Shown piece by piece: positions 4,845-30,621 of a stretch of DNA of 64,000 nucleotides (position 1 is the first letter of the stretch; the number at the start of each line of letters is the position of its first letter). Source of the stretch: Lachnoclostridium sp. An118 (GTDB lineage: Bacteria; Bacillota; Clostridia; Lachnospirales; Lachnospiraceae). Location of the stretch: positions 248,001 through 312,000 of the forward strand of contig NZ_NFLQ01000001.1 in assembly GCF_002160985.1 (NCBI RefSeq), in the 5' to 3' direction. A program made the translations under genes and the position numbers. Below the pieces are notes generated by a model, which was not told where the DNA came from, made no database searches, and saw only the letters and a list, made by a program, of their open reading frames with translations.

Positions 4845-7223
4845 ATGGCAAAACTGCGGGGTATGAATGAGAGGATCCAGAAGCTCAGAGAAATCAGTGT
4901 GAACACGCCTGTACACATTGATCTGGAGAGGGCGAAGATCGAGACGGATTTTTACAAGGAGAATGATGGAAAATATTCCATACCGGTCATGAGGGCCATG
5001 ACGCTGAAGGAATATTTTTCCAAGAAGACGCTGTATCTCGGGGACGGGGAGCTGATCGTCGGGGAGAAGGGCAAGGACCCCCAGGCGTCCCCCACATTCC
5101 CGGAGCTGTGCTGCCACAGTGAGGAGGATATGGTTGTCATGAGCGAGAGGGAGCTTGTGTCCTTCAAGACAACGGAGGAGGATAGAAAGCTCCAGAGGGA
5201 GGAGATCATCCCCTACTGGACGGGGCGCAGCATGAGAGAGAAGCTCCTCTCCAGGATGACACCGGAGTGGCATGACTGCTACGAGGCGGGCATGTTCACC
5301 GAGTTTATGGAGCAGAGAGGCCCGGGGCACACCTGCGGCGGCGAGCAGGTGTTCACTACCGGCTATATGGAGTATAAAGAGAAGATCAAAAAGACAATGG
5401 ACGGCCTGGACTACATGAACGATCCGGATGCTGTGGATAAATGCGAGGAGCTGAAGGCTATGGACATTGCCTGTGACGCTGTCATCATCCTGGGCGAGCG
5501 CTACCACAGCCTGGCTCTTGAGATGGCGGAAAAGGAAGCGGACGAGACGAGGAAGTCCGAGCTCCTTCAGATTGCTGCCAACCTGGAGGTCGTACCTGCG
5601 CACAGGCCTCAGACCTACTGGCAGGCAATCCAGCTCTACTGGTTCACCCACCTTGCAGTCACCACAGAGCTGAACCCCTGGGACGCTTTCAGTCCGGGAA
5701 GACTGGACCAGCACCTGTATCCCTACTATGAGAGGGATGTGGAGGCCGGCATCCTGGACGATGAAAAGGCACTGGAGCTGCTGGAGTGCCTGTGGGTGAA
5801 ATTCTACAACCAGCCGGCGCCTGTAAAGGTGGGCATCACGCTGAAGGAGAGCGCCACTTACACCGATTTTGCCAATATCAACACAGGCGGAGTGACGCCG
5901 GACGGGCGCAACGGGGTGAACAATGTCAGCTACCTGATCCTGGACTGCATGGATGAGATGAAGTTGGTGCAGCCTAACTCCAACGTGACCATCAGCAAGA
6001 AGACGCCCGCTAAATTCCTGAAGAGAGCCTGCGAGATTTCAAGGAAGGGCTGGGGGCAGCCTGCCTTCTACAACACGGAGGCCCAGATCATGGAGCTGGT
6101 CAATGCCGGCAAAAAGCTAGAGGACGCCAGAAGGGGCGGCTCCTCGGGGTGTGTGGAGACAGGCGCGTGGGGAAGCGAGGCATACATCCTGACAGGATAC
6201 CTGAACATCCCCAAGGTATTCCAGCTCACACTGTTCAATGGATTTGACCAGTACAGCGGAAAGCAGATCGGACTCAAGCTGGGGTATGCGAAGGATTTCA
6301 AGACGTACGATGAGCTCTGGGATGCCTTCAGGAAGCAGCTGGAGTATATTGTTGACGTGAAGATACGCGGAAATAATGTGATAGAGAAGCTGTATGCGAA
6401 GGAGATGCCAGCTCCCTGTCTGTCTGTGGTGACAAACGACTGTATATCCAACGCAAAGGACTACAATGCAGGCGGCGCCAGATACAACACAAACTATATC
6501 CAGGGTGTGGGCATCGGAACGGTGACAGACTGCCTGACAGCTGTAAAATACAATGTCTATGACAAGAAAAACTTTACCATGGAAGAGCTGATCGATGCCA
6601 TGGAGCACAACTATGAGGGATATGACGCCATCTACCGCATGGTCCATGACAGGACGCCGAAATATGGCAATGACGATGATTATGCGGACGGTATCATGCA
6701 GGATGTGTTTGAACTCTACAGGAGCACCATCACGGGGCGCCCGAACATGAAGGGCGGAAAGTACGGTGTGGATATGCTGCCTACCACCTGCCACGTGTAC
6801 TTCGGAGACGTGATTCTGGCAACGCCAAATGGAAGAAAGGCCCATCAGCCTGTTTCAGAGGGGATTTCGCCGGAGAAATCCGCAGACACAAACGGTCCCA
6901 CAGCTGTGATCAAATCCTGCTCCAAGATGGACCATCTGGCGACTGCCGGCACACTTCTGAACCAGAAGTTCACGCCTGATGTGGTGGCGGGAGAGGAAGG
7001 GCTGAACAACATGGCCAGCCTGATACGGTCCTACTTTGCGATGGACGGACACCATATCCAGTTTAACGTGGTGGACCGTCAGACACTCATCAACGCCCAG
7101 AAGCATCCGGAGGACTACAAGGACCTGATCGTCCGCGTGGCCGGATACAGCGATTTCTTCCGCAACCTGGACAAACCGCTCCAGGATGAGATCATCAACC
7201 GCACGGAGCAGTCCTTTCAGTAA
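4845..7223 (+). CDS. hypD: trans-4-hydroxy-L-proline dehydratase (glycyl radical enzyme)
   Basis: The 792-residue protein is a pyruvate-formate-lyase-like glycyl radical enzyme. The thiyl cysteine is C436 in SSGCVETG, with E438 two residues on, and the glycyl radical site is G767 in RVAGYSDFF. These match the layout known for HypD (C434, E436, G765 in the C. difficile enzyme, from memory). HypD removes water from trans-4-hydroxyproline to give pyrroline-5-carboxylate. Its assignment over other glycyl radical dehydratases is supported by the divergent proC gene, whose product reduces exactly that compound to proline. RBS AGGAGGG is at good distance. The enzyme needs anaerobic conditions. Confidence 0.9.
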   Translation: MAKLRGMNERIQKLREISVNTPVHIDLERAKIETDFYKENDGKYSIPVMRAMTLKEYFSKKTLYLGDGELIVGEKGKDPQASPTFPELCCHSEEDMVVMSERELVSFKTTEEDRKLQREEIIPYWTGRSMREKLLSRMTPEWHDCYEAGMFTEFMEQRGPGHTCGGEQVFTTGYMEYKEKIKKTMDGLDYMNDPDAVDKCEELKAMDIACDAVIILGERYHSLALEMAEKEADETRKSELLQIAANLEVVPAHRPQTYWQAIQLYWFTHLAVTTELNPWDAFSPGRLDQHLYPYYERDVEAGILDDEKALELLECLWVKFYNQPAPVKVGITLKESATYTDFANINTGGVTPDGRNGVNNVSYLILDCMDEMKLVQPNSNVTISKKTPAKFLKRACEISRKGWGQPAFYNTEAQIMELVNAGKKLEDARRGGSSGCVETGAWGSEAYILTGYLNIPKVFQLTLFNGFDQYSGKQIGLKLGYAKDFKTYDELWDAFRKQLEYIVDVKIRGNNVIEKLYAKEMPAPCLSVVTNDCISNAKDYNAGGARYNTNYIQGVGIGTVTDCLTAVKYNVYDKKNFTMEELIDAMEHNYEGYDAIYRMVHDRTPKYGNDDDYADGIMQDVFELYRSTITGRPNMKGGKYGVDMLPTTCHVYFGDVILATPNGRKAHQPVSEGISPEKSADTNGPTAVIKSCSKMDHLATAGTLLNQKFTPDVVAGEEGLNNMASLIRSYFAMDGHHIQFNVVDRQTLINAQKHPEDYKDLIVRVAGYSDFFRNLDKPLQDEIINRTEQSFQ

Positions 7224-7239
7224 ATAGAATGACAAAGCA

Positions 7240-7273
7240 GCGCCTGGACCACAGCGGCCAGGCGCATTTCTTT
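7240..7273. terminator. Bidirectional terminator between hypD and the GntR gene
   Basis: GCGCCTGG (7240-7247) and CCAGGCGC (7258-7265) form an 8-bp stem, followed on the plus strand by ATTTCTTTAAA. It separates the convergent hypD and gntR genes. Confidence 0.75.
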
Positions 7274-7922
7274 AAAGATATTCCTGAAGGGAACAGTCCA
7301 TGCCGGTTGTAAAGTGGTCGTCCCGGAGGATGGCGTAGGCGTTCTCGTAATCCCCGGCGCGCATGAGCTCCACCATCCTTTTCAGGTTTTCATTGGTGCG
7401 GTCTATGTCCATGCCGTTCCTGACAGAGAACTGGCCCATGCGGATCAGCTCGGACAGGTTGTTCTCATATATCCTGTCAACGCGGCTGTTTTCCAGAATG
7501 CTGATGATTTCCATGTGCATGGCTGTGTCGGCTACCTCCCAGGCGTAAGTGTCGGAGGCTGCGGCGCACATGCGGACCACCTTCTCCTCGATGCGGTAGG
7601 AGTACTCTTCGTTCTTGCCGGAGGTGAAGATGAGGCGGAAGGCGGCGCCCTCCAGCAGCTCCCGCAGTTGGTAGATCTCCCGGATGTCCTTTTCCGTTAT
7701 CTCTTTTACAGTCATGGATTTGTAGTAGTCCGTGACGATGAGTCCCTCTGTCTGCAGCATCCGGATGGCTGTGCGGACAGGGCTGCGGCTCATGCCCAGG
7801 TCCCGGGCCAGCCGGCTCTCTGTCAGAGTCATGCCCGGAGGGTAGGTCATATTCAGGATATTTGTCTTGATCGTCTCATAGGCCTGGTCGGCGAGAGAGA
7901 CATTCTTTTCTTTCTGCGGCAT
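7272..7922 (-). CDS. GntR-family (FadR/FCD) transcriptional regulator of the hydroxyproline locus
   Basis: The 216-residue protein has an N-terminal winged helix (about residues 10-75; LADQAYETIKTNILN, then LARDLGMSRSPVRTAIRMLQTEGLI) and an alpha-helical FCD-type effector domain with RELLEGAAFRLI and late histidines. ATG 7922 is chosen over the longer frame start because CGCAAGGAG lies 8 bases before it. The gene is convergent to hypD and divergent from proC; a TTGTATACAA palindrome overlaps its own promoter, so self-repression is likely. The effector is probably hydroxyproline or a breakdown product (inference). Confidence 0.88.
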   Translation of the reverse strand: MPQKEKNVSLADQAYETIKTNILNMTYPPGMTLTESRLARDLGMSRSPVRTAIRMLQTEGLIVTDYYKSMTVKEITEKDIREIYQLRELLEGAAFRLIFTSGKNEEYSYRIEEKVVRMCAAASDTYAWEVADTAMHMEIISILENSRVDRIYENNLSELIRMGQFSVRNGMDIDRTNENLKRMVELMRAGDYENAYAILRDDHFTTGMDCSLQEYL

Positions 7923-7949
7923 GAAACACACTCCTTGCGTATGAAGATA

Positions 7950-7965
7950 AATTTGTATACAAATT
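7950..7965. promoter_or_regulatory. GntR operator overlapping the gntR promoter
   Basis: AATTTGTATACAAATT is a perfect 16-bp palindrome. On the minus strand it abuts and overlaps a TATAAT -10 (7968-7963), which is preceded after 17 bases by TTGCCT (7991-7986). The core TTGTATACAA recurs at the proC promoter, which marks it as the probable operator of the adjacent GntR protein. Confidence 0.75.
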
Positions 7966-8003
7966 ATAACGTGAAAAAAAGCGGCAGGCAATACCTCTTT
8001 TTC

Positions 8004-8032
8004 TTGACAGGAAGAAGGACGGATGGTATATT
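8004..8032 (+). promoter_or_regulatory. proC promoter
   Basis: TTGACA (8004-8009), 17-base spacer, TATATT (8027-8032): a near-perfect sigma-A promoter. The expected start is near 8039, directly before the two operators. Confidence 0.8.
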
Positions 8033-8042
8033 ATAAACAAAG

Positions 8043-8070
8043 TTGTATACAAAATATAAAAATGTATACA
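8043..8070. promoter_or_regulatory. Tandem GntR operators in the proC leader
   Basis: TTGTATACAA (8043-8052) and TGTATACA (8063-8070) are two palindromic sites centred 19 bp apart, about two helical turns, located at the predicted transcription start of proC. They share the core with the site at the gntR promoter. Confidence 0.72.
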
Positions 8071-8090
8071 AAAAAGAGGAGGATAAGCAG

Positions 8091-8885
8091 ATGAAACTTG
8101 GATTTATCGGAACGGGAAATATGGCCACAGCCATGATGGGCGGAATCATTGAAAATCACATTGCGGCGCCGGAGGAGATTATTGGAGCAGACCCCTTTGC
8201 GCCAGGGCGGGAGAGAGTAAAAGAAAAGTACGGTATCCGTGTGACCGGGGACAACAATGAGGTCGTAAAAAATGCGGAGGTTGTCATCCTCTCTGTAAAG
8301 CCCCAGTTTTATGCGGACGTGATCGCGGGTATCAGAGACAGTGTGACGGACAGTCATCTGATCATCACCATCGCGCCGGGAAAGACTCTTGCCTGGCTGG
8401 CGGAGCAGTTCCAGAAGCCGGTGAAGATCGTGCGCACCATGCCAAACACGCCTGCCATGGTGGGAGAGGGAATGACAGGAGCCTGCAAAAACGCTTATGT
8501 GACAGACGGGGATATGGAGAAGGCGCTGTCCATTTTAAATGGCTTTGGAAAAGCGGAACTGGTCCCCGAGCACATGATGGATGCGGTCGTGGCAGTCAGC
8601 GGAAGCTCACCGGCCTATGTGTTCATGCTGATCGAGGCCATGGCAGACGCAGCTGTATCCGGCGGTATTCCGAGAAATCAAGCGTATAAATTCGCCGCAC
8701 AGGCAGTGCTGGGAAGCGCGAAGATGGTGCTTGAGACCGGCAGGCATCCGGGAGAGCTGAAGGATATGGTGTGCTCACCGGCCGGGACGACCATCGAGTC
8801 CGTTCGGGTACTGGAGGAAAAAGGCTTCAGGAGCGCTGTCATCGAGGCGATGAAAAAATGCGAGGAGATATCTAAAAGTCTTTAA
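8091..8885 (+). CDS. proC: Pyrroline-5-carboxylate reductase
   Basis: The 264-residue protein reduces 1-pyrroline-5-carboxylate to L-proline with NAD(P)H. The Rossmann start is MKLGFIGTGNMATAMMGGI, followed by VILSVKPQ, RTMPNTPAMVGEG and the C-terminal helical signature SGSSPAYVFMLIEAMADAAV and DMVCSPAGTTIESVRVLE. ATG 8091 is chosen because AAGAGGAGG precedes it and the family begins here; a longer frame to 8043 would run through the operators. In context it takes the HypD product on to proline, which could feed Stickland reduction or protein synthesis. Confidence 0.95.
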   Translation: MKLGFIGTGNMATAMMGGIIENHIAAPEEIIGADPFAPGRERVKEKYGIRVTGDNNEVVKNAEVVILSVKPQFYADVIAGIRDSVTDSHLIITIAPGKTLAWLAEQFQKPVKIVRTMPNTPAMVGEGMTGACKNAYVTDGDMEKALSILNGFGKAELVPEHMMDAVVAVSGSSPAYVFMLIEAMADAAVSGGIPRNQAYKFAAQAVLGSAKMVLETGRHPGELKDMVCSPAGTTIESVRVLEEKGFRSAVIEAMKKCEEISKSL

Positions 8886-8902
8886 AAGTAAACAGGGATA
8901 CA

Positions 8903-8937
8903 GGGACAGAGGTTTTCGTTTTCCTCTGTCCTTTTTT
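8903..8937 (+). terminator. Terminator after proC
   Basis: GGACAGAGG (8904-8912) and CCTCTGTCC (8923-8931) form a 9-bp stem followed by six T. Confidence 0.9.
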
Positions 8938-8988
8938 GTGCTAAAATATAAGAAGCATATCAACTAAAAAGGACAGAGGGACAAGATA

Positions 8989-9588
8989 ATGGAGAAGACA
9001 GAAGAAAAGAAGAGTGTAAAGAGCAGGATCATCTCGGCTGCCTGGGAGCTGTTCCGGGACAAGGGCTTTGGCGGGACGACAGTGGATGACATCATAGAAA
9101 GGTCCGGAACGTCCAAGGGTTCCTTTTACTACTATTTCAGCGCCAAGGATGAGCTGCTGAACACACTGGCGGAGATGCTGGATGACTACTACGGGGAACT
9201 GGAGGACAAGCTGGATCCCGGCGAGGACTGCTTTGAGAAGCTCCTCTATCTGAACAGGGAAATGCACGCCATGATGGAGGAGAATATCAGCATGGAGCTG
9301 CTGGCTTCCCTGTACTCCACCCAGCTTGTGGCCCAGGGAGAGAGCCAGCTCCTGAATGAGAACCGGAAATACTACAAGCTGATATCCGGGATCGTGGAGG
9401 AGGGGCAGAAGAGGGGAGAGATCCGCGGGGATGTGTCTATCCGAACGGTGGTGAAATATTACGCCATGTGCGAGAGGGCTCTCGTGACAGAGTGGTGCCT
9501 CGGAAAGGGGAGCTATTCCCTGGGAGAGTACAGCAGGGAGTATTTTCCTGTCATGATGGAGCATTTCCGGGGGACAGGCAATCCCTGA
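8989..9588 (+). CDS. TetR-family transcriptional regulator
   Basis: The 199-residue protein has the TetR N-terminal helix-turn-helix: RIISAAWELFRDKGFGGTTV then DIIERSGTSKGSFYYYFSAKDEL (about residues 12-56). The C-terminal ligand domain is all-helical and not assignable to a substrate. No divergent target gene is present; the gene stands alone between proC and the convergent pyrBI operon. The stretch GGACAGAGGGACAAG before the ATG serves as ribosome site and repeats part of the proC terminator sequence. Confidence 0.9.
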   Translation: MEKTEEKKSVKSRIISAAWELFRDKGFGGTTVDDIIERSGTSKGSFYYYFSAKDELLNTLAEMLDDYYGELEDKLDPGEDCFEKLLYLNREMHAMMEENISMELLASLYSTQLVAQGESQLLNENRKYYKLISGIVEEGQKRGEIRGDVSIRTVVKYYAMCERALVTEWCLGKGSYSLGEYSREYFPVMMEHFRGTGNP

Positions 9589-16041: not shown

Positions 16042-16064
16042 ATAGATACAATCCTTTCTATTTT

Positions 16065-16108
16065 AAGTGTCCACAGTGCCAAGTGTTCACAGGACCAAGT
16101 GTTCACAG
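16065..16108. repeat. Three phased repeats in the rqcH-yicC intergenic region
   Basis: AAGTGTYCACAG occurs at 16065-16076 (with CC), 16081-16092 and 16097-16108, an exact 16-base period. Each copy contains the dyad GTGTTCAC-like core GTG/CAC. The array lies just upstream of the rqcH start and the yicC ribosome site and may be a regulator binding array. Confidence 0.8.
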
Positions 16109-16201
16109 TATACCACAGAAAGGAGGGTTTGCAAAGTTGACGGGGGAGGGGAAATGAATTATAATAATGCAGTATCAAAAAGCGAAAAAGAGGTTGCCAA
16201 A

Positions 16202-24897: not shown

Positions 24898-25048
24898 AGG
24901 GACCGGCAGAAAAATTGCTGAAACCAGATTGACGAATGTCGAAAATTATGAGAAAATAATTTTAGCTATGGGTTAAATATATAACAACCCTGCAAAAAAT
25001 CCATACGTGCAGCCAAGGGCATGTATGCATATCGAAAGGAGTTTTAAA

Positions 25049-25741
25049 ATGATTTATTCACATGAAGTAGAAATGATGTGTCCGGTAGCTCAGGGTGCAA
25101 ATCACGGACCGGCTCCGATCCCGGAAGAAGCAAAATGGGTACAGGCTAAAGAGATCAAGGACATCTCCGGATTTACACACGGTGTGGGCTGGTGCGCACC
25201 TCAGCAGGGAGCATGCAAGCTGACACTGAACGTAAAAGACGGCATCATCCAGGAGGCTCTCGTTGAGACACTGGGATGTTCCGGAATGACTCACTCCGCA
25301 GCTATGGCTTCTGAGATCTTGCCTGGAAAGACCATCCTCGAGGCACTGAACACAGACCTTGTCTGTGACGCTATCAACACAGCCATGAGAGAGCTCTTCC
25401 TCCAGATCGTTTACGGAAGAACACAGAGCGCGTTCTCTGAGAACGGCCTTGCTATCGGAGCAGGACTGGAAGACCTCGGAAAAGGACTCCGTTCACAGGT
25501 TGGAACCATGTATGGTACATTAGCCAAAGGTCCCCGTTACCTTGAGATGGCAGAGGGATATGTAACAGGTATCGCTCTTGACGAGAACGATGAGATCATC
25601 GGATACCAGTTCGTAAACCTTGGAAAGCTGACAGACTTTATCAAAAACGGCGATACACCGAACGATGCCTGGGAGAAGGCAAAGGGCCAGTACGGACGTG
25701 TAGATGACGCTGTGAAGATCATCGATCCGCGCAAAGAGTAA
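25049..25741 (+). CDS. NifU/IscU-like scaffold protein paired with GGGtGRT protein
   Basis: The 230-residue protein has an IscU/NifU-N-like core: GWCAPQQGACKLTLNVKDGI, then EALVETLGCSGMTHSAAMASE and LPGKTILEAL, where LGCSGMTHSAAM corresponds to the scaffold's Cys-containing substrate loop. It lacks a clear third cluster cysteine of classical NifU. Start ATG 25049 follows CGAAAGGAG; the longer frame upstream has no site. Codon use (CGT, GGT, GTT, ACA rich) differs from neighbours and suggests high expression. It is 49 bases upstream of the GGGtGRT gene, its conserved partner by my recollection. The metabolic role is not known. Confidence 0.8.
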   Translation: MIYSHEVEMMCPVAQGANHGPAPIPEEAKWVQAKEIKDISGFTHGVGWCAPQQGACKLTLNVKDGIIQEALVETLGCSGMTHSAAMASEILPGKTILEALNTDLVCDAINTAMRELFLQIVYGRTQSAFSENGLAIGAGLEDLGKGLRSQVGTMYGTLAKGPRYLEMAEGYVTGIALDENDEIIGYQFVNLGKLTDFIKNGDTPNDAWEKAKGQYGRVDDAVKIIDPRKE

Positions 25742-25790: not shown

Positions 25791-26801
25791 ATGGCTTTAT
25801 TTGAATCATATGAAAGAAGAATTGATAAAATCAATGAAGTATTAAACAGCTACGGCATTGCTTCACTGGAAGAAGCTGAGAAGATCACAAAAGATGCCGG
25901 ACTGGACGTATACAACCAGATCAAAGGCATTCAGCCGATCTGTTTCGAGAATGCATGCTGGGCTTACATCACAGGTGCAGCTATCGCCATCAAGAAGGGC
26001 TGTGAGACAGCTGCAGACGCCGCCGCAGCGATTGGAGAGGGCCTGCAGGCTTTCTGTATTCCGGGATCCGTTGCTGACCAGCGTAAAGTAGGTCTTGGAC
26101 ATGGTAACCTTGGCAAGATGCTCCTTGAGGAGACAACAGACTGCTTCTGCTTCCTGGCTGGACATGAGTCCTTCGCAGCAGCAGAGGGTGCAATCGGTAT
26201 CGCTGAGAAAGCAAACAAAGTGCGCAAGAAACCTCTCCGTGTTATCCTGAACGGACTTGGAAAAGACGCTGCAAAGATCATTTCCAGGATCAACGGTTTC
26301 ACATACGTACAGACAGAGTACGACTACTTCACAGGCGAGCTGAAAGAAGTACAGAGGATTGCTTACTCTGACGGACTTCGCTCCAAAGTAAACTGCTACG
26401 GTGCAAACGACGTGCGCGAGGGTGTTGCCATCATGTGGAAAGAGGGCGTTGACGTTTCCATCACAGGTAACTCCACAAACCCGACACGTTTCCAGCATCC
26501 GGTTGCAGGAACATACAAAAAAGAGTGCGTAGAAGCAGGAAAGAAATACTTCTCCGTTGCATCCGGCGGCGGTACAGGACGTACACTCCACCCGGACAAC
26601 ATGGCTGCAGGACCGGCTTCCTACGGTATGACAGATACAATGGGACGTATGCACTCTGACGCTCAGTTTGCAGGATCCTCTTCCGTACCGGCTCACGTAG
26701 AGATGATGGGTCTCATCGGCGCAGGAAACAATCCGATGGTTGGTATGACTGTTGCGGTTGCCGTTTCCATCGAGGAAGCAAAGAAAGCTGGCAAATTCTA
26801 A
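25791..26801 (+). CDS. GGGtGRT protein (conserved, function unknown)
   Basis: The 336-residue protein contains SVASGGGTGRTLHPDNMAAGP near residue 258, the sequence from which the GGGtGRT family takes its name. Other features are CFENACWAYITGAAIAIKKG, a GHGNLGKMLLEE stretch and a Gly-rich C-terminus. No transmembrane helix or known enzyme motif was found. Several conserved Cys and His residues could bind metal. RBS CAGGAGGATACATAA is strong and codon bias matches the preceding gene. The two form a discrete, probably highly expressed operon ended by a terminator. Confidence 0.85.
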   Translation: MALFESYERRIDKINEVLNSYGIASLEEAEKITKDAGLDVYNQIKGIQPICFENACWAYITGAAIAIKKGCETAADAAAAIGEGLQAFCIPGSVADQRKVGLGHGNLGKMLLEETTDCFCFLAGHESFAAAEGAIGIAEKANKVRKKPLRVILNGLGKDAAKIISRINGFTYVQTEYDYFTGELKEVQRIAYSDGLRSKVNCYGANDVREGVAIMWKEGVDVSITGNSTNPTRFQHPVAGTYKKECVEAGKKYFSVASGGGTGRTLHPDNMAAGPASYGMTDTMGRMHSDAQFAGSSSVPAHVEMMGLIGAGNNPMVGMTVAVAVSIEEAKKAGKF

Positions 26802-27948: not shown

Positions 27949-28962
27949 ATGAGAGAAAAAAATTATAATCTGGAACTGATACGCATGGTGTCCTTTGTCC
28001 TGGTGATCGCCATACATGTGAGCAATTATTTCTGCCGGGGCTACGGGGAAATCCCGGACAGTGAATACCTCTTTTCACTTGTGGTGGACACGGCGGCAAG
28101 AGTGAGCGTGCCCTGCTTTTTCATGATCACCGGGGCGCTGCTGATGGGGAGAGATGAGCCCCTTGAAAAGCATGTGAAGAGGCTCGTCCGCTTTTTTACC
28201 GTGCTGGTGGTGTGGAGCCTGGTCTACTATCTGTGGAATATCTTTTACATGAAATCGGATTTTGACCTGCGGACGATCCTCTATGAGCCGGCGGAAGCGC
28301 ATCTGTGGTATCTGTATGCCATGATACCCATTTACCTGGTCCTTCCGTTCCTGCAGGTGATGTGCAGGAATTTCAGCGTAAGGCTGGAGAAGGCGTTCTT
28401 TGTGGTGACGACAGGAACGGTCATCGCCAACTATCTGCTGTGGCTGATGCACGGCGAATTTTACTACGACCCGCCCCTGATAGGAGACCGGGTCTATGTC
28501 TATTACCTGTACGCAGGCTACTACCTCTATAAGTACAGGGACCGCATCCGCCTCAGCCAGAGAGTGGCAGCAGCGGTATGCCTCGTGAGCCTTGCTGCCT
28601 CCTTTGGCATCACGCTGGCCGCGACGGTGGCCCAGGAGGATCACTACGAGGGAGCCCTCACCTACGGCATGCCCTTTATCGTGCTGGCCTCAGCCATGTT
28701 TTTCCTCTTTATGCTCAGGCTGGGAGGAGGAAAGCTGCGGCCCGGTGAGAGGGCGAAAAAAGTCATCGACCTCTTCTGCGGATGCTCCTTTGGGATTTAT
28801 CTCATCCATATCCTGTTCCTGGACAACTACAAAAAACATATGGAGCCCTGTGACCTGTCCGCCTGGATCGCGGTGCCGGCGCTTGTGGCGAGCATCACGG
28901 CCGTCTCCTTCCTGTGCGTCTGGCTGCTGCGGAGGACAGGAGCCGGCAGGAAGATCACCTGA
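27949..28962 (+). CDS. Membrane acyltransferase (acyltransferase_3 family)
   Basis: The 337-residue protein has about ten hydrophobic segments and the family start NLELIRMVSFVLVIAIHVSNYF, where the R and the H are the conserved catalytic-region residues. Members O-acetylate cell-wall or surface polysaccharides and lipids. The second signature (LWYLYAMIPIYLVLPFL) also fits. The gene follows ispH by 21 bases, but the likely substrate cannot be read. Confidence 0.85.
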   Translation: MREKNYNLELIRMVSFVLVIAIHVSNYFCRGYGEIPDSEYLFSLVVDTAARVSVPCFFMITGALLMGRDEPLEKHVKRLVRFFTVLVVWSLVYYLWNIFYMKSDFDLRTILYEPAEAHLWYLYAMIPIYLVLPFLQVMCRNFSVRLEKAFFVVTTGTVIANYLLWLMHGEFYYDPPLIGDRVYVYYLYAGYYLYKYRDRIRLSQRVAAAVCLVSLAASFGITLAATVAQEDHYEGALTYGMPFIVLASAMFFLFMLRLGGGKLRPGERAKKVIDLFCGCSFGIYLIHILFLDNYKKHMEPCDLSAWIAVPALVASITAVSFLCVWLLRRTGAGRKIT

Positions 28963-29042: not shown

Positions 29043-30131
29043 ATGGCAAAATTTTGTACACAATGCGGAAGAAGATTGGAAGAAGGCGAGGTCTGCAACT
29101 GCACACAGCAAGAACAGAGCGCAGCACAGAAACAAAGTACAACTCAGAACCAGAGTGCAGCGGCCCCCGGAGCAGCGGGCTGGCAGCAGAGCGGTGATCA
29201 GCACCAGAGCTCAGCCTACACGAATTACCAGGGAGGACAGCAGAGCCAGAGCGCAGGCCCCCGGCAGCAGTCCCAGGGGACAAATTACCAGCAGTACGGT
29301 CAGCCGCAGTATAACCAGGGCGTGGGTGGCAATCAGCAGTATAACCAAGGAATGAACAGCGGCCAGCAGTACAGGCAGGGAATGAACAATGGCCAGCAGT
29401 ACAGGCAGGGAATGAACAATGGCCAGCAGTCCCAGTGGGCGGGCATGAACAGCCAGCAGATGAAGCAGATGGGAGCGCAGGCCATGGCGGGAGCTCAGAA
29501 TATGTTCCGCGAGGTCCTTCCCATCCTGAAACGCCCTGTGACAGAGACAAGGAGGATAGCCGCAGGAAACTCCCCGCTGGTGGGGCTGGAGCTGATCGGC
29601 TTAAAGGCGCTGGTCATCCTTATCATTGTCCTGATCGCGGCGTCAAGGATTTCTGGAGCTGCAAATGGGCTGATACAGATGCCCTATTTTAAGCTGGTCA
29701 TTCTCGTTCTCCTCTTGACACTGGGAGTGGATGCCCTGGAGGCAGTGCTCCTGAACGTGTTTGCCGGCATGTTTAAGGGCAGCGCCAATATAAACGCCAT
29801 GTTCTGTGTAGTGGGAAGCCGGGCGCTCTACGACGGGATCATCGCCATCGTGGCGGGTATACTGGCTCCGTTTTTCCTCACAGGTTCTGTCTTTGTCCTT
29901 GTGTTCGGCAGCCTGATCCTGCCCTATGTCCAGTACGGGGCTTACCGGGCAGTCGCACAGGGCGACGATGACAGGAGAGTGTATGCGTTCTTTCTCGTGA
30001 AAGTGATCTCGTCGCTTGTCCTGTATATCATTTTATACATGATGGCAGCTGATATGCTGACTTCTATGCTTGGGAGCGCCATGAGCGGCTTTGGCTCAGG
30101 CCTTGGTTCAGGCTTTGGCTCATATTATTAA
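29043..30131 (+). CDS. Zinc-ribbon, Q/N-rich repeat and Yip1-like membrane protein
   Basis: Residues 3-20 are a zinc ribbon (CTQCGRRLEEGEVCNC). Residues about 22-145 are Gln, Asn, Gly, Tyr and Ser rich, including three copies of a QQYRQGMNNG-type decapeptide coded by 30-base DNA repeats. Residues about 180-350 contain five or six hydrophobic helices resembling Yip1/DUF1282 domains. The C-terminus is GFGSGLGSGFGSYY. Proteins of this build are common in Lachnospiraceae but have no defined role. The low-complexity segment is prion-like in composition. Confidence 0.75.
   Translation: MAKFCTQCGRRLEEGEVCNCTQQEQSAAQKQSTTQNQSAAAPGAAGWQQSGDQHQSSAYTNYQGGQQSQSAGPRQQSQGTNYQQYGQPQYNQGVGGNQQYNQGMNSGQQYRQGMNNGQQYRQGMNNGQQSQWAGMNSQQMKQMGAQAMAGAQNMFREVLPILKRPVTETRRIAAGNSPLVGLELIGLKALVILIIVLIAASRISGAANGLIQMPYFKLVILVLLLTLGVDALEAVLLNVFAGMFKGSANINAMFCVVGSRALYDGIIAIVAGILAPFFLTGSVFVLVFGSLILPYVQYGAYRAVAQGDDDRRVYAFFLVKVISSLVLYIILYMMAADMLTSMLGSAMSGFGSGLGSGFGSYY
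29351..29430 (+). repeat. 30-base tandem repeat inside the Q/N-rich gene
   Basis: AATGAACARYGGCCAGCAGT followed by ACAGGCAGGG forms a 30-base unit at 29351-29380 and 29381-29410, with a 20-base third copy at 29411-29430. Copies two and one differ at two bases. Multiples of three bases keep the frame, so copy number can vary without breaking the gene. Confidence 0.9.
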
Positions 30132-30151: not shown

Positions 30152-30454
30152 ATGATGGTAAAGCTGAATGACCAGGCAAAGGCATATATGGAAAGGCTGG
30201 GGTGGAAGGACCTTGTGCTTGGCGTGGAGGAGTACACCAGCTGATGCGCGCCTCCGTATAAGGAGGTCGTGGTAAGTTTTACCCGAGAGGAAAAGGAAGC
30301 CATGGAGGCGAAGGGCTATGTGGCCGCAGAGAGCGAGGTCGGCAGTGTGTATTACCCTGCGGAAGGGGTGAAGACCTCGGAGGAAATAGCTGTGAATTAC
30401 ATAGAATATCCGTGGCTTACCAGATTTGAAGTGGAAGGGATCGAGCCGTCATAG
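30152..30454 (+). CDS. Probable selenoprotein of the CC/Se-motif type (in-frame UGA)
   Basis: One reading frame runs from ATG 30152 to TAG 30454 (100 residues) and is interrupted only by a TGA at 30242-30244 (codon 31). Before it: MMVKLNDQAKAYMERLGWKD to GVEEYTS; after it: CAPPYKEVVVSFTREEKE and on. Both halves read as one protein, giving ...TS-U-CAPP..., a Sec-Cys pair. This fits the small family that NCBI, as I recall, names CC/Se motif family (seleno)protein. A hairpin follows the UGA directly. The upstream site is AAAAAGGGAGCG. The alternative is a pseudogene or an internal start at 30269 giving a 61-residue protein. Function is unknown. Confidence 0.7.
30245..30271 (+). promoter_or_regulatory. 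Candidate bacterial SECIS hairpin
   Basis: Directly after the UGA, GCCTCC (30250-30255) pairs with GGAGGT (30262-30267) around the loop GTATAA (30256-30261); with one bulged C the stem extends through GCG/CGT. The loop starts with GU, as in many bacterial SECIS loops. Only 11 bases separate UGA and loop, shorter than the usual spacing I know (about 16-37), so support is partial. Confidence 0.5.
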
Positions 30455-30486: not shown

Positions 30487-30621
30487 ATGGACAGCCGGAC
30501 TGTAATGGAGCTTGTGCTGGTCACGGTACTTGCGGTTTTGGGCATTGTCCTGACTGTCTGTGAGAGCAGGAGGGTGACAGAGCCGATCACCGTGCAGACT
30601 CGCCTTACCGCTCTGTCCTGA
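30487..30621 (+). CDS. Small membrane protein
   Basis: A 44-residue ORF: MDSRTVMELVLVTVLAVLGI then VLTVCESRRV, one transmembrane helix (about 7-25) with a basic end. GAGGGGGATGCTTT precedes the ATG. The following ORF at 30630 lies in another frame and looks like its continuation, so the two may be one frameshifted gene. No family recognised. Confidence 0.45.
   Translation: MDSRTVMELVLVTVLAVLGIVLTVCESRRVTEPITVQTRLTALS

Follow-up and report, generated by a model that had tools for sequence, protein, structure and literature searches.

The A-type carriers IscA and SufA (PF01521) are built on the HesB/IscA fold, and IscA has three cysteine ligands, the last two of which are found near the C-terminus. 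A fold of the same type, with a selenocysteine (Sec) near the first cluster cysteine, is shared by the selenoproteins of the models TIGR01911 and NF038090 (IscA_HesB_Se). A further set of small proteins is gathered in the CC/Se motif family NF041239 (predicted, Moorella thermoacetica), which has been functionless so far. In Table 1 of PMC13188914, the motif of NF041239 is given as CxxU and that of TIGR01911 as UxGP.

We analyzed a window of 64,000 nucleotides from Lachnoclostridium sp. An118 and found in it a small gene whose product, with the motif UCAP, can be compared with all of these proteins. It represents, beside the CC/Se family, a new Sec-Cys selenoprotein subfamily whose fold is predicted to be of the HesB/IscA type.

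A small gene with an in-frame UGA codon

The gene consists of one frame of 100 codons followed by TAG. Its lone internal TGA, codon 31, is directly followed by a TGC codon that encodes the sole cysteine of the protein, and the first-pass annotation had given both the coordinates and the description of this frame correctly. With the TGA read as Sec, the protein contains ...GVEEYTS-U-C-APPYKEVVVSFT... and may begin at either of two ATG codons, most homologues starting at the position of the second one in the alignment. The features of the locus are as follows (A and B being the two subfamilies described below).

29043..30131, + strand: upstream neighbour, by eye a zinc-ribbon-like membrane protein; also upstream in L014, not in L015
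30135..30140, + strand: Shine-Dalgarno-like AGGGAG, 11-14 bases ahead of the two candidate ATG codons
30152..30454, + strand: selenoprotein gene with TGA read as Sec, from sequence and homologues; start ATG at 30152 or 30155
30242..30244, + strand: UGA codon 31, inferred Sec; TGA in 18/18 sequences of subfamilies A and B
30245..30247, + strand: TGC, Cys32, proposed partner of Sec31; invariant in 13/13 sequences of subfamily A
30252..30265, + strand: first small hairpin after the UGA, CUCC/GGAG; invariant in subfamily A
30267..30287, + strand: SECIS-like hairpin, with 8 possible pairs in the window, a bulged U at 30270 and the apical loop GUU at 30276-30278

A search of 299 genomes from the same family as the window yielded a homologue (E up to 0.001) in 13. 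All 13 homologues contain exactly one in-frame stop, always TGA and always at the same column, and in the alignment the similarity continues through this TGA into both flanks; the lack of homologues across the UGA, which the first-pass annotation had named as the result that would speak against it, was thus not observed. For this gene, the nearest named relatives belong to Eubacterium sp. ER2 (93% identity), Claveliimonas monacensis (85%) and an otherwise unspecified Lachnospiraceae bacterium (46%). TGA also occupies the homologous column in these three, which come from named contigs, and in L052, which comes from another family of the class. Taken together, the sample of 299 genomes, the named-contig relatives and the class-level profile matches gave 18 sequences, 13 of them forming subfamily A (motif T/S-S-U-CA) and five forming subfamily B (motif C-x-T-U-GG or SG). 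The Sec column holds TGA in every one of the 18 and never TAA or TAG, and subfamily A has 25 invariant columns lying on either side of Sec (n=13). When 391 genomes of the class were searched with a profile of A and B, three gave a match, that of the window being counted in.

The replacement of the UGA by a cysteine codon, which we had been advised to look for, is seen only in distant relatives such as the Cys-Cys protein of G412; in the alignment, no cysteine stands at this column in the 13 sequences of subfamily A, nor in subfamily B. The genome of the window also carries a Sec-Gly paralogue of subfamily B with one TGA (L054, G000:C9:40603-40884), and more Sec-Gly paralogues are present in G035, G296 and G085, one of the G085 copies being split across two frames.

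One could argue that the TGA is a plain stop, a sequencing error or the mark of a pseudogene, and that two short open reading frames are simply separated there. Under translation table 11 with a threshold of 60 amino acids, only the downstream half is indeed listed, starting at GTG 30269 and coding for 61 amino acids. This explanation is nevertheless highly improbable in view of the identical TGA throughout two subfamilies, of the conservation of the protein to either side of it and of the covarying hairpin that follows.

This hairpin pairs columns 26-34 with columns 38-46 after the UGA in the 18 sequences. We observed pairing in 91.4% of 162 cells, compared with 22-53% in slid registers. Cells changed on both sides numbered 21, against 7.2 in shuffles, and the covariation score reached 0.438, against 0.280, neither value being attained in any of 500 shuffles. 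On the other hand, the number of pairs with both sides changed (five of nine) and that of further pair types did not exceed the shuffles, 34 and 423 of 500 of which were as high. RNAalifold, when left unaided, recovered the inner six pairs. When the 13 sequences of subfamily A were taken by themselves, with both hairpins, changes on both sides were seen in 10 cells, against 3.2 in shuffles (0/500 as high), while the count of pairs changed on both sides was equalled in 195 of 500. As subfamily A shows no variation in the first hairpin, covariation is uninformative for it.

The fdhF SECIS of E. coli has a bulged U and a GU loop, and the apical loop of such elements follows a G/U rule. The hairpin of the window, just 3' of the UGA, has both G and U in its apical loop, and this loop reads G-N-U in 17 of the 18 sequences, the exception being L009 with A-U-U. 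In the window, L014 and L015, the bulging of one U prevents three outer pairs of the nine from forming in the straight register; the bulged register restores U26-A45, C27-G44 and G28-C43 and leaves U29 out, and in L014 and L015 it is the minimum free energy fold. That of the window itself differs, an extended first hairpin being preferred, which counts against the SECIS-like form.

We then come to the machinery for Sec insertion, whose absence from the genome would also have told against a selenoprotein. In the genome of the window (G000; 3.47 Mb, 57 contigs), selD (4949-5869), selA (6026-7366), selB (7429-9312) and the gene selC for tRNA-Sec (16043-16136, 65.5 bits) all lie within 12 kb of contig C56, and selD itself carries one in-frame TGA. 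Along the first 20,000 bases of this contig (L037), which look like a selenium island, we take selD, selA and selB to be preceded by a YedF-like gene and followed by genes for a LysR-type regulator, a cysteine desulfurase and a YedE-like transporter; after tRNA-Sec come what are presumably proline reductase genes of the PrdC/PrdA type.

In the 299 genomes, tRNA-Sec scored above 58 bits in 44, a line that we drew after seeing the gap between 58.7 and the next score, 48.9. Genomes with a homologue have such a tRNA-Sec in 11 of 13 cases, and the 286 without one in 33 (Fisher p 1.3e-8, shared ancestry not being corrected for). The cut-off of Rfam itself (47) is passed by 57 of the 299, the same 11 of 13 included. 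Similarly, selB, selA and selD exceed their cut-offs in 11, 11 and 11 of the 13 genomes, versus 0, 0 and 1 of eight control genomes picked because they had neither the homologue nor tRNA-Sec. In G124 (320 contigs), tRNA-Sec was not found, even in a deeper rescan, and selA, selB and selD are present; in G231 (82% complete), neither tRNA-Sec, deeper rescan included, nor any sel gene over cut-off was found. G104 (L021, L038), a 3-contig assembly that is 96% complete, has a homologue with the UGA as well as tRNA-Sec (67.9 bits); no selA, selB or selD over cut-off was detected in it, nor did a search of the 20 kb around its tRNA-Sec with proteins of the window's genome give any match. Among 32 genomes picked from the wider family, tRNA-Sec exceeds 60 bits in 30. 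The remaining two, G412 (47.3 bits) and G924 (49.4 bits), encode Cys-Cys forms; their scores nominally pass the cut-off of Rfam but are of the size seen below the gap. Since some genomes that have tRNA-Sec encode Cys forms too, these are independent of its absence.

Altogether, an in-frame UGA with coding conservation on either side and the presence of selA, selB, selC and selD, as found in bacterial selenoproteins, uphold the Sec-Cys selenoprotein suggested by the first-pass annotation, and the SECIS-like hairpin adds to them. The window gene almost certainly encodes such a protein, its UGA being read as Sec, and Sec insertion at this codon is supported as well as sequence comparison allows.

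As regards its surroundings, the upstream neighbour has no Pfam match at E up to 0.01. Downstream, a small membrane-protein-like open reading frame (30487-30621) ends early in the window; its counterpart in C. monacensis (L015), one base different in length, reads on in frame. Upstream, a weakly NifU_N-like gene (25007-25741; 20.9 bits for a cut-off of 22) adjoins a GGGtGRT gene (25791-26801), and such a pair also lies near the G296 homologue, in the other orientation. In subfamily A, the only neighbours found to be common across genera were generic transporter-type matches, and these lay at varying places. We thus discarded gene context as a source of evidence on its function, no informative neighbour being shared.

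Relation to the CC/Se family and predicted fold

The CC/Se motif family had been named in the first-pass annotation as a small family with Cys-Cys or Sec-Cys at this place. NF041239 is indeed the only NCBIfam model that matched the window protein, over the full length but weakly (14.2 bits, E 0.035, for a cut-off of 40). When ten further relatives were compared with the model, three of four subfamily B proteins matched with 13.6-26.4 bits (E up to 1) and none of six subfamily A proteins did at E up to 1. By the rule of NCBI, the window protein is therefore not a member. Profiles gave a more favourable picture. Direct hhalign comparison of subfamily A with NF041239 members yielded E 5.9e-5 (probability 65%), that of A with B E 5.1e-19 (99%) and that of B, with its Sec-Gly motif, E 9.7e-11 against NF041239 (97%), so that B forms a bridge; in all three cases, Sec was aligned with Sec, and the homology extends along the whole protein. 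The family name thus pointed to the right neighbourhood, and the homology stands, but subfamily A lies outside the model. The two are alike in length and in the Sec column. They differ in score and in motif, Sec-Cys (UC) in the window, although UC also occurs in some of the NF041239 loci that we fetched (L065, L075, L080, L083, L084). With subfamily A, Lachnospiraceae-like bacteria gain a selenoprotein subfamily that escapes the NCBIfam and Pfam models tried.

As for the other selenoproteins of this fold, neither TIGR01911 nor NF038090 matched the window protein at E up to 1, whereas the NF041239 protein L065 weakly matches both, as well as ErpA-related, HesB-like and SufA models.

An AlphaFold model of the window protein (43 sequences) had a pLDDT of 91.6 and a pTM of 0.79. 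Compared with the PDB by Foldseek, its ranks 1-6 were all IscA or SufA (E 1.2e-4 to 5.0e-3, probability 1.00, TM 0.54-0.63, rmsd 3.1-4.2), four of these matches at E up to 0.001. The predicted model thus displays the HesB fold of PF01521 and IscA, and we consider it very likely that the protein adopts this A-type carrier fold. Sequence comparisons were less telling. A profile search of the PDB gave chance-level matches only (best E 0.059), direct alignment of E. coli IscA with subfamily A had no significance, and a Pfam scan of the window protein returned nothing, PF01521 included. Six of eight related proteins hit PF01521 below its cut-off, the best with 8.4e-5. The Sec of NF041239 members aligns with the cysteine of the SGCSG motif of IscA with E 0.032 and a probability of 1.6%, and its placing at this position consequently leans more on fold than on sequence.

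The window protein differs from IscA and SufA in having no C-terminal Cys-x-Cys; instead of the three cysteine ligands of IscA, it holds only Sec31 and Cys32. Membership among the canonical A-type carriers was rejected on these grounds and because PF01521 fails. The CC/Se family gains a likely fold and a testable chemistry.

The Sec-Cys pair and its possible chemistry

To see how Sec is accompanied in this group, we tabulated 70 rows, made up of the 18 sequences of subfamilies A (13) and B (five), the 30 NF041239 loci that we fetched and 22 further rows, leaving out of the count one duplicate and 12 Sec-free rows (ten Cys-Cys, one CxxC and L098, which has no pair). A second cysteine or Sec lies within three residues of Sec in 55 of the 57 distinct Sec proteins (expected 1.9% each), a count that cannot be used as a probability because the rows are best matches and many are related. 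Cysteine elsewhere in these proteins is rare (0.32%). The partner varies in position, at -3, -1, +1 or +3, and the two exceptions are L055, with no partner, and L082, with a cysteine at +4. L098 (G909:C1:1838322-1838594), an NF041239 match with neither Sec nor cysteine at the active place, speaks against a universal need for the pair.

Within flanks of about 1.5 kb, 18 of the 30 fetched NF041239 loci have beside them, by sequence, a gene for thioredoxin or for a thioredoxin-thioredoxin reductase fusion (L055, L056, L059-L064, L066, L068-L070, L073, L077, L079, L082-L084); Pfam confirmed four representatives. These 18 loci come from five taxonomic families, 11 of them from a single one. None of the 18 belongs to subfamily A, and in the comparison of neighbours no thioredoxin gene was among those shared in that subfamily.

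On this basis, we propose the following mechanism. The hairpin at 30267-30287 would direct SelB and Sec-tRNA-Sec to decode the UGA at 30242-30244 as Sec. Sec31 and Cys32 would then sit on a loop between two strands, where IscA holds its first cluster-ligand cysteine, and could act as a vicinal selenol/thiol redox site that cycles via a selenenylsulfide, the latter being reduced by the thioredoxin system. We infer such a thioredoxin-reduced site from the Sec partner kept in 55/57 proteins together with the thioredoxin genes beside 18/30 loci; for the window protein, the link with thioredoxin would hold by analogy with distant relatives. A redox site is preferred to a conventional iron-sulfur carrier because the protein lacks the two C-terminal cysteines of IscA and has, besides Sec31, no chalcogen residue but Cys32. 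That the pair serves redox chemistry rather than the carriage of Fe-S, another metal, selenium or sulfur is the reading to which the sequences incline us, if only slightly. The explanation as a whole, namely a SECIS-directed selenoprotein with the HesB/IscA fold and a thioredoxin-linked Sec-Cys redox site, seems to us reasonably probable.

An iron-sulfur or metal carrier, in which Sec31 and Cys32 of at least two subunits would bind Fe, [2Fe-2S] or a soft metal, would agree with the predicted IscA/SufA fold. It would also fit the genomes: in the 13 with a homologue, that of the window included, PF01521 found no match at E up to 0.001, whereas a control search was positive in 9 of 14 named genomes, and the A-type function looks unfilled because of this absence. 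The NifU_N-like and GGGtGRT genes, 3.4-5.1 kb upstream in the window and also near the G296 gene, go in the same direction. Yet nothing in the window protein corresponds to the C-terminal cysteines of IscA, the sole other recurring cysteine (+60) occurs in only 7 of 13 subfamily A sequences, the partner of Sec shifts in position across the family and relatives have thioredoxin neighbours, all of which makes a carrier of this kind rather unlikely.

The protein could otherwise relay selenium or sulfur, as a per-selenide or persulfide, to SelD or to iron-sulfur assembly. The gene is found mostly in genomes with Sec machinery, and the stretch from selB to tRNA-Sec in the genome of the window includes what we take to be a cysteine-desulfurase-like gene. 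Against this, this query, which distant paralogues may escape, recovered a homologue in only 11 of the 44 genomes with tRNA-Sec in the family sample, and the protein is hence not a needed part of Sec synthesis; moreover, inspection by eye and clustering revealed no sel gene beside the homologue loci. We regard such a relay as quite improbable.

Returning to the redox site, one may tentatively extend it to the CC/Se family and subfamily A taken together. They could form one branch of the HesB/IscA fold that has turned from iron-sulfur trafficking to thioredoxin-linked selenol redox, a branch that would keep Sec and move its partner (CxxU, CU, UC, UxxC), with one subfamily bearing a Sec-Sec pair read from UGA-UGA with the help of a single SECIS-like hairpin.

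Adjacent Sec-Sec proteins and other NF041239 loci

In the phylum sample, 89 of 398 genomes gave NF041239 matches. Ten of its matches, from ten genomes of five families, contain an in-frame UGA-UGA, that is Sec-Sec (L085-L094, in G722, G944, G755, G824, G898, G921, G791, G1008, G1028 and G1046). Five of the seven Sec-Sec proteins tested pass the cut-off of 40 bits, and tRNA-Sec scores at least 74 bits in each of the ten genomes. The motif column of Table 1 of PMC13188914, the latest inventory, contains no UU motif and thus no adjacent Sec-Sec pair, nor is Sec-Sec named in the titles or opening abstract lines returned by literature searches.

After each UGA-UGA, a hairpin with a GG-containing loop is possible, the minimum free energy fold of L094 being different. 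In nine of the ten loci, 91.7% of the cells of this hairpin are paired. Four cells are changed on both sides, against 1.1 in shuffles (1/500 as high), and the two pairs changed on both sides do not exceed the shuffles (127/500). Six Sec-Sec loci adjoin genes for an aldehyde ferredoxin oxidoreductase and a ThiS-like protein, one representative of each being confirmed by Pfam, and a seventh adjoins the oxidoreductase gene.

Finally, two NF041239-like frames of G1048 (C13:31701-31967 and 28056-28307) are broken by TAA or TAG and are perhaps pseudogenes, and L101 (G722:C17:28912-29489) carries tandem NF041239 genes, one of them Cys-Cys and the other Cys-Sec.
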